Assembly (NCBI GenBank): GCA_029267445.1
Contig: JAJUIU010000036.1
Location: forward strand, 1 to 37,241
Reading direction: 5' to 3'
Origin: Rhodospirillaceae bacterium
GTDB lineage: Bacteria > Pseudomonadota > Alphaproteobacteria > Azospirillales > Azospirillaceae
Length of the DNA: 37,241 bases
Shown here piece after piece: positions 1 through 3,935 of the stretch; position 1 is the first letter of the stretch, and the number at the start of each line of letters is the position of its first letter. The notes under the pieces are model-generated. The model had not been told where the DNA came from and did no database searches. It saw nothing but the letters and a program-made list of their open reading frames with translations. A program made the translations under genes and the position numbers.

Positions 1-419
1 ACGGCGTAGTAGGCGAGGAACCGTCCGGTCACGAGGTCCCCCTCCGCCACGTTCCGGTCGACGAAGTCGGCGTCACGCCCGATGGTGTCCGGCTCCATGT
101 ATAGCCACATCCCGACACTGTCGGACGCCGTCAGCGCGAGGCGTCGGATGAGGTCGGCCAGCATGGCCCGATCGTCGCGCCGGTTCGCCACCATCGTCGC
201 GGCCATCTCGGCCAGGCTTTCGGCGGGGCGGGCCTGCTGCTCGAAATATGTCCGGATCTTGCTGAGCTCCCCCTCGGCGAGGTCGCGGCCGTACTCGGTG
301 GCGAACCGGTCGACCACGCCCTCAGCGCCACGCAGCGCCAGCAGCCCCGTCCCGAGCAACACCAGCGCCACCACGGGGAGGATGGTCGCCAGCAGCCGGG
401 CGGTGAGGGAGAGGCGCAT
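1..419 (-). CDS. dCache-type membrane sensor, N-terminal part (cut by window edge)
   Basis: The frame is open from an ATG at 419 to the left edge, giving 140 residues without a stop. It begins with a short basic stretch and a hydrophobic segment (about residues 8-28), followed by an extracytoplasmic region. The section around WLYMEPDTIGRDADFVD resembles the region [18 protein letters not shown] of the chemoreceptor at 1845-3935, so I read it as the start of a dCache sensory domain. The start lies 4 nt after the stop of the receiver gene, which suggests translational coupling, and the Shine-Dalgarno signal is weak. The output domain is outside the window. Two response-regulator genes in the same operon favour a sensor histidine kinase, but a chemoreceptor or diguanylate cyclase cannot be excluded. 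Confidence 0.75.
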   Translation of the reverse strand, partial: MRLSLTARLLATILPVVALVLLGTGLLALRGAEGVVDRFATEYGRDLAEGELSKIRTYFEQQARPAESLAEMAATMVANRRDDRAMLADLIRRLALTASDSVGMWLYMEPDTIGRDADFVDRNVAEGDLVTGRFLAYYA

Positions 420-423
420 GGGC

Positions 424-837
424 TCAGGCGGGCACGCTCTGGGCCGCGCCCGCCCGCGGCGCAGGTCCCGAGGCGGCGACCAGGTCCAGCAGGCCGCGGA
501 TGCTTTCCACCTCGCCCCCGCCCTTGCAGGCCGCCATGTCGGCGCCCAACGCGAGCGCCGCGTTCACATAGGGATTGCGGAGCCCTATGCATCCGCCGGT
601 CAGCAGAAGGATGGGCAGGTGCCCGTGCTGGCGGCGGATCGCGCGGATCAGTTCAAGGCCGTCCATCCCGGCCATGACCAGATCGACGATGATCCCGTCC
701 ACGGGCAGCTCACCCAGAGCCGACAGCGCCGACGGGCCGGAGTCCCGGCTGACGGTTCGGCAGCCATGGCGCTTCAGGACCGTTTCCAGGAACTCCCGGT
801 AATCGGCGCAATCGTCGACGACGAGAATGGTGTGCAT
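424..837 (-). CDS. Stand-alone response-regulator receiver domain protein (CheY-like)
   Basis: This is a 137-residue protein made of a single receiver domain with no output domain. All key residues are visible: the acidic pair D8-D9 (VVDD), phosphoacceptor D52 (IIVDLVMAGMDG), T80 (ILLLTGG) and K105. A Gly/Ala-rich tail follows. The ATG at 837 has a GGAAGGGGG-like ribosome site just upstream, whereas an upstream in-frame ATG at 969 would start in a stretch with no family resemblance and overlap the preceding gene. It is the middle gene of a leftward operon, between a NarL/FixJ-type regulator and a dCache sensor. It may be a phosphate shuttle, phosphate sink or protein-interaction output for that sensor. 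The 128-nt gap upstream carries copies of a GGTATGSGG-like motif. Confidence 0.85.
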   Translation of the reverse strand: MHTILVVDDCADYREFLETVLKRHGCRTVSRDSGPSALSALGELPVDGIIVDLVMAGMDGLELIRAIRRQHGHLPILLLTGGCIGLRNPYVNAALALGADMAACKGGGEVESIRGLLDLVAASGPAPRAGAAQSVPA

Positions 838-965
838 GTCCGGCCCCCTTCCAGCACCGAAAGGCCAGCCTATGCGTTGGGGCGGGTATGCGTGTCGGGT
901 CCGCTGGGATACACCCCGCGTCCAGAGGTATGCGGCACCCCATACCGGCGCGGCGGTGCCAGGCG
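838..965 (-). promoter_or_regulatory. Gap with GGTATG(C/G)G motif copies, possible operator
   Basis: This gap lies between the NarL/FixJ-type regulator gene and the receiver gene. It contains TATGCG at 871-876, GGTATGCG at 885-892, and an imperfect palindrome GGTATGCGG/CACCCCATACC at 927-946. The same sequence family recurs in the divergent promoter at 1702-1732. The arrangement suggests a second promoter, or an operator bound by the regulator encoded in this operon. That link is inference; only the repeats are directly visible. Confidence 0.45.
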
Positions 966-1616
966 TCATGGCCGCAGCAGCCCGAGCTCCTGCGCCTTGA
1001 CCACGGCGTCGGTCCGGTTCTTGGCGTCGAGCTTCTTGAGGATGCGGCGGATGTGGAGCTTCACCGTCACTTCCTGCATGCCGAGGATGCGTCCGATCTC
1101 CTTGTTGCTTCCGCCGCAGCGCAGTTCGCGCAGAACCTCGGACTCACGCTCCGTGAGAAGGCGCGGTCCCCCCTCAGCCGGCTCATCGGCTTCGGCGCCG
1201 CTCCGGTCCAGCAGGCCCATCGCAAGATGCACCGGGATCAGCGTGCCGCCCGCAAGCAGCAGGCGCACGGCCGCGACGAACTGCGCGCGGTTCAGCGTCT
1301 TCGGCAGGAAGCCCACGACACCGGCCGAAAGTGCTGCGAACACCACCTCGGCGTCCTCGGACCCGGTCATCACCGCGACCGGCCCCGTGACGCGCGCCCG
1401 CTGCAGCGCCTCGATACCGGCGCCGCCGCTTTCCGGGCTCGACAGGAACCAATCCATCAGGATCAGGCTGAAGGATTCGCCAGACAAAATAGCTATGGAA
1501 TCTAACGAATCGACGAACTGGACGTGTGTATCTGTTAAATCGCGGGTCAGATAGAGTTCCACCGCGTCCCGGAACGCGGGATGATCGTCGGCGACGAGGA
1601 TGCGCGTGACGTTCAT
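966..1616 (-). CDS. NarL/FixJ-family two-component response regulator
   Basis: The protein has 216 residues. The receiver domain (1-120) has the acidic pair D10-D11, phosphoacceptor D55 (LILMDW), T84 (AVMTGS) and K106 (LPKT). The C-terminal LuxR-type helix-turn-helix (about 150-212) contains TERESEVLRELRCGGSNKEI and the recognition helix region VTVKLHIRRILKKLDAKNRT. This is a full-length, intact transcription factor of the NarL/FixJ class. It is the first gene of the leftward operon with the receiver and the dCache sensor, and is divergent from the chemoreceptor at 1845. Perfect and near-perfect inverted repeats in its promoter could be its own binding sites, which would mean autoregulation and possibly control of the chemoreceptor. 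Confidence 0.92.
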   Translation of the reverse strand: MNVTRILVADDHPAFRDAVELYLTRDLTDTHVQFVDSLDSIAILSGESFSLILMDWFLSSPESGGAGIEALQRARVTGPVAVMTGSEDAEVVFAALSAGVVGFLPKTLNRAQFVAAVRLLLAGGTLIPVHLAMGLLDRSGAEADEPAEGGPRLLTERESEVLRELRCGGSNKEIGRILGMQEVTVKLHIRRILKKLDAKNRTDAVVKAQELGLLRP

Positions 1617-1701
1617 GCCTGTGTTCGTCTTCAGTCACCACGCCCAGGGTCCAGGTTTCATTTTGTCCGCAAAGTCCGCGCGCCGCCATGAAAAAGAGCG
1701 C

Positions 1702-1732
1702 GGTATGGGGCGACCCCATACCACCGCATACT
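1702..1732. promoter_or_regulatory. Palindromic operator candidate in divergent promoter
   Basis: A perfect 9-bp inverted repeat, GGTATGGGG and CCCCATACC separated by CGA, lies at 1702-1722. A further copy, CCGCATACT, follows at 1724-1732. It sits 86 nt upstream of the response-regulator start (1616) and 122 nt upstream of the chemoreceptor start (1845). Related half-sites occur at 871-946 in the same operon. A dimeric regulator site is likely. There is no T-run and the element is in a divergent gap, so it does not look like a terminator. Confidence 0.6.
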
Positions 1733-1844: not shown

Positions 1845-3935
1845 ATGCTTAAGCGACTGACGGTCGGCCTGAAACTGACGATCGCGGCCGGCGCGGCCAT
1901 CAGCGTCCTGCTGGGAGCCGGCGCCTGGCTGGTGACGCGGGAGGCCGGCGGAACCGCGCGCACGCTTGGCCATGCCTATGGCGACGCGCTGGCACAGGGC
2001 GCCATCGTTTCGGTCGATGGGCGGTTCACCCAGCTGGCGAAGATCACGGCCACGCTCGCCGAGACCATCAACGGGGCCCATGCCGCCGGTCTGCGCGACA
2101 GGGGGAGCGTGGTCGAGATGCTCCGCCGGTCCATGAACGCCTCCCCACAGATCCTGGCGGCCTGGATCATGGTGGAGCAGAACGCCTTCGATGGGCGGGA
2201 CGCGGCCTTCGTGGGCGACAGCGCCACCGGAGCCTCCGAGTCCGGCCGGTTCGCGCCCTACCTGTCGCGCGGGGCCGACGGCGGCATCGTGGTCGAGACC
2301 ATCGAGAGCGACGCGGAGTACCAGGAGCCGTTCTATCGCGACAGCTTCGCCTCGGGACGGCCGGCCCTGCTGGAGCCCTACACCTACGACGTCCAGGGCA
2401 CCGATGTGCTGATGACCACGATCTCCTTCCCGTTCCTCGCGGACGGGCGCGTGGCGGGCGTCGTCGGCATCGACATCGCGCTGGACAGTCTCGGTCGCGA
2501 ACTGGCCGCCATCCGGCCTTTCGGCGTCGGGCGCACCACGCTGCTGTCGGCGGATGGGAACTGGGTGGTCCATGCCGACACGGCCGCGATCGCGGCGCCC
2601 TATGCCGACGCGCGGGCGGCGGACGTGCTGACGGCGGTCCGGGCGGGCCGCGCGCTCGAGTTCCTGCATGAGGATCGCACGGGCGGCGCCGATCCGGTCA
2701 CCGTCGAGCGTACCGTCCATCCCATCGCGATCGAGGAGCTGGGGGCGACCTGGGCGCTCGTCATGGACGTGCCGGTATCGGCGATCGAGGCGCCGGCCGC
2801 CGACCTCGCGGCAAAGCTCGCCATCGGTGGGATCGCGGTGACCCTGCTGACCCTGGGCGCGCTGTTCGCCGCCTCCGTCTTCATCGTGCGCCGTCCGCTG
2901 ACCGCCGTCTGCGTGGAGGTGGCGCGGCTGCAGGCGGGCGATTACGTCACCGCCGTCGACGGCACCGGCGCCGGGGACGAGATCGGCCGGATCGCCCGCG
3001 CGCTCGACGAGTTCCGCCTGGGCCTCGCGGAGGCCGAGCGGCTGAAGGCCGAGCAGGTCGCGGCGGAGGCCCGGGCCGGAGAGGAGCGCCGGCGCATGCT
3101 GTTCGACCTCGCCGACAAGTTCGACGGCGAGGTGCGGGACGTGCTGGAGGCGGTCGCGAGCAGCGTCACCGAGCTGCGGGCCAGTGCCGCCGCCATGAAC
3201 GGCATCGCCGAGGAGACGCAGTCCCAAAGCGCGAACGTGGCCGCCGCGACCACGCAGGCGTCCGCCAACGTGGCGACCGTCGCCGCCGCAGCGGAGGAGC
3301 TGACGGCCACGATCAAGGAGATCGCCCGTCAGGCCGAAGGCGCCCGCGGTACCGCCGGAGATGCGGTGGCGGCCGCCGAGGAGACGGATCGGCTGATGCA
3401 GGACATGGACGCCGCCGCCCGCGAGATCGGGACCGTCGTGAACCTGATCCAGACGATCGCAGGCCAGACCAACCTGCTGGCGCTGAACGCCACCATCGAG
3501 GCCGCCCGTGCCGGGGAGGCGGGCAAGGGTTTCGCCGTCGTCGCCAGCGAGGTCAAGAACCTTGCGAGCCAGACCGGCAAGGCGACGGAGGAGATCGGCG
3601 GCCAGGTGCAGCGGCTGCAGGCCGCCGCCTCCACGGCCGTCGCCGCCGTCGCGCGCATCCGCGACGTCATCGGCGCGGTCAGTGGCGCCGCCGGTTCCAT
3701 CGCCGACGCGGTGGACAGCCAGCAGAAGGCGACAGAGGAGATCGTCCAGAACGTGCAGCAGGCCGCCCACGGCACGGGGCAGGTGGCCCAGGCGATCGAA
3801 CTGGTCAGCCAGGCGGCCGGGGAGACCTCCGGCAGCGCGGGCGAGGTGCTGAAGACGTCCGACCTGCTGGCCAGGGAAGCCGACAGCCTGAAGTCCTCGA
3901 TCGAGGCGTTCGTTGGGCGCTTGCGGGCGAGCTGA
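1845..3935 (+). CDS. Methyl-accepting chemotaxis protein with dCache sensor domain
   Basis: This is a 696-residue transmembrane chemoreceptor. TM1 is at about 8-30, a periplasmic dCache domain at 35-320, TM2 at about 325-348, HAMP at 349-401, and the methyl-accepting signalling coiled coil at 420-690. The hairpin tip is canonical ([20 protein letters not shown], about 541-560). The sensor part has typical dCache features such as [22 protein letters not shown] and [11 protein letters not shown] see no C-terminal NWETF-type pentapeptide for CheR/CheB tethering. The ATG at 1845 has a GGGGGAGGG ribosome site. The sensor half resembles the truncated sensor at 1-419, so the two divergent systems may sense related ligands. 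The ligand itself cannot be told from the sequence. Confidence 0.93.

Follow-up and report, generated by a model that had tools for sequence, protein, structure and literature searches.

The motif GGTATG(C/G)GG, which is repeated around a NarL/FixJ-type response regulator gene (positions 966-1616 of the window, the whole 37,241-nucleotide stretch of DNA analysed), is very likely the half-site through which this regulator adjusts its own phosphorelay and the chemoreceptors encoded with it. The palindrome built from this motif is restricted to the operon genome-wide and conserved in orthologous operons, which supports the proposal of a first-pass annotation that the motif is the binding site of the operon's regulator; we infer binding from these comparisons. 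The same comparisons extend the reach of the putative operator to four gaps and to the whole family. Such an operator is a known kind of gene control, and the unusual aspect is that inverted and helically phased direct sites are mixed.

Organization of the gene cluster

Leftward from the chemoreceptor gene, the window contains gap 1 (1617-1844), the regulator gene, gap 2 (838-965), a receiver (REC) gene, and a kinase gene fragment, as follows.

1845-3935, plus strand: divergent dCache chemoreceptor (MCP) gene, with MCPsignal and MCP-like_PDC_1 domains
966-1616, minus strand: NarL/FixJ-type response regulator (P0001), the proposed binder, with PF00072 and PF00196 domains
424-837, minus strand: stand-alone REC protein gene (Response_reg, PF00072, E 3.3e-17)
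3-419, minus strand: the first 139 aa of a membrane hybrid histidine kinase, cut by the contig end, with 63% identity to residues 1-139 of P0005

P0005, the kinase of the nearest relative, G027 (locus L042), has the domain order dCache-HAMP-PAS-HisKA-HATPase-REC; a Pfam search with the 139-aa fragment from the window produced no match. The remainder of the kinase (60% identity to P0005) is encoded at G000:C141:2-2377, on a second contig of the same genome. Because the ends of the window contig and of C141 overlap by 21 bases and the kinase resumes on C141, this contig very probably is the continuation of the window operon. Downstream of the kinase, C141 carries gap 3, a chemoreceptor gene with an sCache_2 domain (77% identity to the G027 counterpart), gap 4, and a gene for a second histidine kinase with a GAF domain. 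The order regulator-REC-kinase-chemoreceptor-kinase is identical in G027, where the counterpart of the last kinase gene appears as two ORFs (194 and 441 aa) that abut the chemoreceptor gene with hardly any gap. A DNA-binding domain was found in the regulator and in none of the other operon products examined.

Residues 4-418 of the dCache chemoreceptor show 30% identity over 430 aa to the N-terminal part of the G027 kinase, so that the chemoreceptor and the kinase may sense the same kind of ligand. Just before the start of this chemoreceptor gene, at 1769-1841 on the plus strand, there is a strongly structured leader, an imperfect 20-base stem around two hairpins, in which the stem pairs the ribosome-binding region. 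The predicted fold of 1733-1862 has a z-score of -4.95, with 0 of 200 shuffles as stable. No Rfam family was detected in the window at the gathering score, or in 780-1900 at E 1, and no match to the leader longer than about 36 bases was found in the other family genomes searched. The leader could be a translational switch.

Half-sites and palindromes in the window

The exact word GGTATGSGG occurs four times in the window, at 927-935 (+), 938-946 (-), 1702-1710 (+) and 1714-1722 (-), always within gaps 1 and 2. Together with the weaker copies, the sites are as follows.

871-876, plus strand: weak partial half-site TATGCG, too short for significance alone
885-893, plus strand: half-site GGTATGCGT, one mismatch, 21 bp from the half-site at 906
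906-911, plus strand: half-site GGGATA, the form found in genus g2 and Azospirillum, 21 bp away from both 885 and 927
927-946, unstranded: main operator of the regulator-REC gap, GGTATGCGG-CA-CCCCATACC, a 9-2-9 inverted repeat in which one pair is mismatched
1702-1722, unstranded: operator in the divergent regulator/chemoreceptor gap, a perfect 9-3-9 palindrome
1724-1732, minus strand: extra half-site AGTATGCGG, one mismatch, found by motif search

Of the copies listed in the first-pass annotation, the imperfect palindrome at 927-946 and the perfect one at 1702-1722 stand as described, but those at 885 and 1724 each carry a mismatch and the one at 871 is weak. The GGGATA half-site at 906 was absent from that list, and with it the half-sites at 885, 906 and 927 are evenly spaced by 21 bp. 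In gap 2, the half-sites at 885, 906, 927 and 941 thus follow each other at intervals of 21, 21 and 14 bp.

Allowing one mismatch, the whole window contains 14 matches to GGTATGSGG, compared to a mean of 17.4 expected by chance from shuffles. Word frequency by itself was therefore dropped as a signal, and the signal lies in clustering and pairing. From the palindrome at 1702-1722, the distance is 85 bp to the start of the regulator gene and 122 bp to that of the chemoreceptor gene. A pattern scan of 830-1860 detected no sigma-70 consensus, so the position of this palindrome relative to a promoter is not usable.

Restriction to the gene cluster

Across the whole 4.23 Mb genome, GGTATGSGG-N2-4-CCSCATACC matches the two window places only, with 0 matches in the reversed control. 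The same strict form was found in 1 of 385 genomes drawn across the class, the source genome itself, with G027 lying outside the draw. A looser palindrome, GTATGSGG-N0-12-CCSCATAC, was searched in 82 family genomes and matched in four of these: twice in the source genome, once in G027, again in the regulator-REC gap, and with a single match in G077 and another in G032. The spacers of the latter two matches are 10 and 12, and we attribute both to chance; the reversed control yielded one place, in G084. A search of the source genome for 9-3-9 near-palindromes with up to 3 mismatches gave six other places, compared to four in the reversed control, and these were judged to be chance matches.

The gaps on C141 are filled with direct repeats. 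Gap 3 (L098:2396-2598), before the sCache chemoreceptor, contains six direct CATACC words with steps of 11, 11, 12, 12 and 12 bp, and one more 43 bp further on; gap 4 (L098:4297-4480), before the second kinase, contains three direct GGTATG words with steps of 11 and 11 bp. The window and C141 combined thus carry four GGTATG clusters, one per operon gap, where a cluster is defined as words starting within 25 bp of each other. As a control, we used the first up to 20 kb of contigs C1 to C80 of the same genome (1,168,071 bases, 27.6% of the genome). This sample contains 114 single GGTATG/CATACC words and no cluster of them. For the word GGGATA, the sample holds 168 singles and two clusters; among 10 control loci of relatives, a GGGATA cluster was present in three (among them L191, which was chosen on account of such a site) and a GGTATG cluster in one; and at L047 a further GGGATA cluster, the second there, lies outside the operon. 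The GGGATA word thus also clusters elsewhere.

These results qualify the original description of the motif as clustering in the two gaps that flank the regulator gene: this is correct for the exact copies within the window, but the next two gaps, on C141, are also filled. The concern that the motif might be equally common at random intergenic sites is answered by the palindrome, which occurs nowhere else in the genome, and by the lack of clusters in the 27.6% of the genome sampled.

Conservation of the operator in related bacteria

Relatives of the regulator were collected from the 82 family genomes with the A. ramasamyi ortholog as the query and a limit of E 1e-42, which yielded 36 genes in 32 genomes; the regulator of the window is barely within this limit (3.9e-43). 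A contig scan with a single protein query returned five distant loci that were of no use. Among the 36 genes, 31 have a REC neighbor, four paralogs in Azospirillum (g11) have no visible REC gene, and one, in G070, is cut by a contig end. For these genes, chosen by protein only, we searched for an inverted GGKATR pair with a spacer of 1-15 in the 300 bp on the REC side.

The pair was found at all 31 regulator genes with a visible REC gene, in 22 cases exactly and in nine with one mismatch. At the REC-less g11 paralogs, it was found in 0 of 4 cases, on either side, even with one mismatch. In first-order shuffles, the chance per gap was 0-3% for exact pairs and 0-25% with one mismatch, so that the nine weaker sites carry little weight singly. 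In G070, the contig ends 213 bp upstream of the regulator gene and this stretch holds only a dissimilar one-mismatch pair; another G070 contig has the site plus a REC gene at its extreme end.

The site stays on the REC side irrespective of gene order, given that the REC gene is downstream of the regulator in g1, g2 and g12 and divergent in Azospirillum. The outer pair is GGTATG in the source genome and G027, and GGGATA in g2 and Azospirillum. Its span over both arms is mostly about 20-23 bp (a few Azospirillum genes score only an inner 13-bp pair), and most loci of g2 and Azospirillum have a third or fourth half-site in addition. In Azospirillum lipoferum 4B, an annotated IS630-like element, ISAli3 (L153:10801-11867), separates the REC and regulator genes, and the GGGATA cluster is retained on the REC side of the element, which makes this locus a natural case for telling the gene served by the site.

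The flank on the other side of the regulator gene is less uniform. An exact pair on the non-REC side was found at one gene, that of the window, the G099 flank being unreadable. In G027, whose regulator is 66% identical, the palindrome is likewise located in gap 2, between the regulator and REC genes, and gap 3 holds a mixed cluster; there is no site in front of the regulator gene and no cluster after the sCache chemoreceptor gene. In genus g2, the upstream flank of the regulator holds an exact pair in 0 of 6 readable genomes, with a one-mismatch pair in G001; in the seventh, G099, a contig end truncates this flank. Given the absence of the regulator-side site in G027 and of an exact pair in g2, the role of the site at 1702-1722 is probably to control the divergent chemoreceptor no less than the regulator gene. 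The conserved target, as judged from these genome comparisons, is the REC-kinase promoter.

The expectation that the motif would recur in orthologous operons was thus confirmed by the same gap in G027 and by the GGKATR pair at all genes with a REC neighbor. As in an autoregulated two-component operon, the operon's own gaps hold specific sites that are kept in orthologs; the site upstream of the regulator is not kept in G027 or g2.

Other occurrences of the operator word

The long form of the Azospirillum operator, searched with up to 3 mismatches, was detected at 21 places in 19 of the 82 genomes (reversed control, 0): 17 between the REC and regulator genes, one beside a REC gene at a contig end, and three elsewhere. 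A shorter form matched 19 places, distributed over 19 of the 82 genomes, and none in the reversed control; 16 of these places are in the regulator-REC gap and three are not (G069, G097 and G029). A third search, tuned to the exceptions, returned 18 places in 15 genomes, comprising 10 known regulator-REC sites and eight located before a FixJ-like gene.

The FixJ-like sites are found in Azospirillum (L132, L150, L151 and L193-L197), with the operator word upstream of the regulator gene in 8 of 8 such sites; the receiver of this regulator seems to lack the phospho-acceptor Asp, as judged by eye from two sequences. Given these eight sites, the Azospirillum word has at least one more conserved target and hence a wider regulon, and a second binder is thinkable. 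At G069:C23:24264-24286 (L112, about 1501), the word precedes an operon that by eye resembles STAS-REC-CheA; a regulator-kinase pair that belongs to the same clade and has no REC gene lies approximately 10 kb away. At G097:C1:700613-700636 (L123, about 1501), several TATCCC/GGGATA words neighbor a gene that by eye is phosphatase-like, and no relative of the regulator was found within 1.5 kb. At G029:C277:14188-14216 (L124, about 1501), the repeats, both inverted and direct, are rich in TTATCCCC; because this place may be a replication origin, it was left out of account. Its flanking genes resemble maf and ferrochelatase/hemH (by eye). All seven g2 genomes searched (L090-L096) carry a second kinase of the same family with 41-43% identity to P0005, and no regulator relative was found within about 1.5 kb of these kinases.

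Regulator family, phylogeny and recognition helix

P0001 consists of a receiver domain (PF00072, residues 6-118) and a LuxR/GerE helix-turn-helix domain (PF00196, residues 153-208). By eye, the receiver has the acidic pair, the phospho-acceptor Asp, the Thr/Ser and the Lys (VADDHP, LILMDW, VMTGSE and LPKT).

In a tree of 41 rows, for which the program warned of long branches such that the order of the deeper forks is unsure, 32 regulators form one clade (100/100), and the two regulators associated with GGTATG form a pair (100/100). Three REC-less paralogs are sister to 20 Azospirillum orthologs, with the joint branch at 97/93; these paralogs have no site, and in the simplest reading they lost the site and the REC gene together.

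In the two GGTATG genomes, the sequence of the recognition helix is QEVTVKLH-I/V-RRILKKL; the 27 compared sequences of the GGGATA groups all have QEVT-V/I-KLH-T-RRILRKL. The three REC-less paralogs have the helix AEVTVKFHTRRIF, with Thr at the variable position. Among nine more distant regulators, seven are readable at this position, six with Ile and one with Val, and the exact pair was found in 0 of 9. The letters of the half-site and the residue in the recognition helix appear to covary, which is suggestive; because the change follows the gene tree and the GGTATG side comprises two genomes only, it counts as one event at most.

Alternative explanations

Chance repeats, or a small functionless repetitive element, would fit the observation that single one-mismatch half-sites are no commoner in the window than in shuffles. 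This explanation is excluded in practice by the combination of the paired site kept in the same gap at all 31 regulator genes with a REC neighbor and the absence of GGTATG clusters from 1.17 Mb of the same genome. A regulatory site could still be read by another protein of the cell, an orphan FixJ-like regulator or a global factor, with the operon being but one target. The eight Azospirillum sites upstream of a FixJ-like regulator gene and the further g11 site before the operon resembling STAS-REC-CheA (by eye) point in this direction. We consider it improbable, however. Within the sequence searched, neither the palindrome nor the clusters occur outside this gene cluster in the source genome; regulator genes with a REC partner have the sites, whereas the four REC-less paralogs lack them; and the half-site letters and the recognition helix change together.

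The palindrome at 1702-1722 might alternatively be an intrinsic terminator or attenuator of leftward transcription rather than an operator. The minus strand of 1700-1724 is the sole terminator-like site in 830-1860 (11 pairs and a loop of 3, followed by GCTCTTTTTC; shuffle mean 0.5), and the predicted RNA fold includes the 1702-1722 hairpin. Yet the palindrome precedes the leftward regulator gene, and on its other side comes a divergent gene; no T run accompanies the same word at 927-946 or in L042; the copies on C141 are direct repeats that could form no mutual hairpin; and those in Azospirillum lie between divergent genes. In addition, the whole leader folds little better than shuffles (z -1.28; 22 of 200 shuffles reach its stability). 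Termination, although it fits the pattern at 1700-1724, is thus improbable as the function of this palindrome, and the reading we retain for all these sites is that of an operator bound by the operon's own NarL/FixJ-type regulator.

Proposed mechanism

Under this operator model, the dCache hybrid kinase would sense a signal outside the membrane and, with the stand-alone receiver, would set the phosphorylation state of the regulator. The regulator, in turn, would bind clusters of half-sites on one face of the DNA: the spacings of 11-12, 14-16 and 21 bp correspond to near-integer helical turns between many half-sites, which suggests cooperative binding. Its predicted targets are the four gaps, namely those between regulator and REC, between regulator and dCache chemoreceptor, before the sCache chemoreceptor, and before the second kinase, and the bound regulator would set the expression of the REC-kinase unit and of the chemoreceptors. 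This suggests that a sensor module encoded beside receptors sets the receptor dosage.

By analogy with DegU of Bacillus subtilis, the inverted pairs of gaps 1 and 2 and the one-turn direct arrays (3-6 half-sites) of gaps 3 and 4 might be read differently by the unphosphorylated and phosphorylated regulator, and the switch from GGGATA to GGTATG might have come about through replacement of Thr by Ile/Val in the recognition helix (Ile189 of P0001). This combined reading is possible but, on our estimate, rather unlikely; if true, it would mean that one sensory circuit is operated with different DNA words in related bacteria. The analysis yields a putative operator, a candidate regulator and a small target set for a chemotaxis-linked two-component operon of Azospirillaceae, along with natural variants for tests of NarL/FixJ specificity: two words, two kinds of helix residue, a six-fold phased array and site-less paralogs that lack a REC gene.

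Comparison with known systems

The combination of REC and GerE-type HTH domains is common to the window regulator and to NarL and NarP of Escherichia coli. The nearest solved structure is that of NarL (1a04, E 1.9e-15), and the nearest NCBIfam models are NarP and NarL. With 87.8 bits against a cut-off of 343 for NarP and 86.4 against 250 for NarL, the regulator is far below the thresholds and, by its sequence, is evidently not a member of these equivalogs. Unlike NarL and NarP, it is encoded with a dCache hybrid kinase, a lone REC protein and chemoreceptors. The NarL heptamer consensus is TACYYMT, and by eye no such heptamer is contained in GGTATGSGG or its complement. NarL sites can be direct, inverted, divergent or single (PMC2245950).

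The operator was not found named among the open-access papers searched on the half-site words with operators or response regulators, on NarL-family autoregulation, on TATCCC in Azospirillum, on FlcA/NarL, or on kinase/chemoreceptor settings, and passages from papers on Azospirillum two-component systems and on CgrA of Rhodospirillum centenum (PMC4618731, PMC4681086) name no such site. The OmpR-type regulator AgrR combines an inverted site with an in-phase direct half-site in autoregulation, as described in PMC7380067. The GGGATA/TATCCC operator of Azospirillum and g2 resembles that of the window in its location in the REC-side gap, in the similar outer inverted pair, which spans 21 to 23 bp, and in the extra phased half-sites; it differs in having GGGATA in place of GGTATG and, in Azospirillum, in the divergent orientation of the REC gene, which in two annotated records is followed by an HD-domain gene.

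In DegU of Bacillus subtilis, also of the NarL family, one half-site is used in both inverted and direct arrangement within one regulon, as appears to be the case here, and the arrangement of the sites may decide whether the unphosphorylated or the phosphorylated form binds (PMC2245950). The DegU half-site, of the GTCATTTA type, is quite unlike the GGTATG(C/G)GG of the window operon. DegU-P regulates more than 100 genes, according to PMC2245950; in contrast to this broad regulon, the targets of the window regulator seemingly lie in a single gene cluster of its genome, within the sequence searched.
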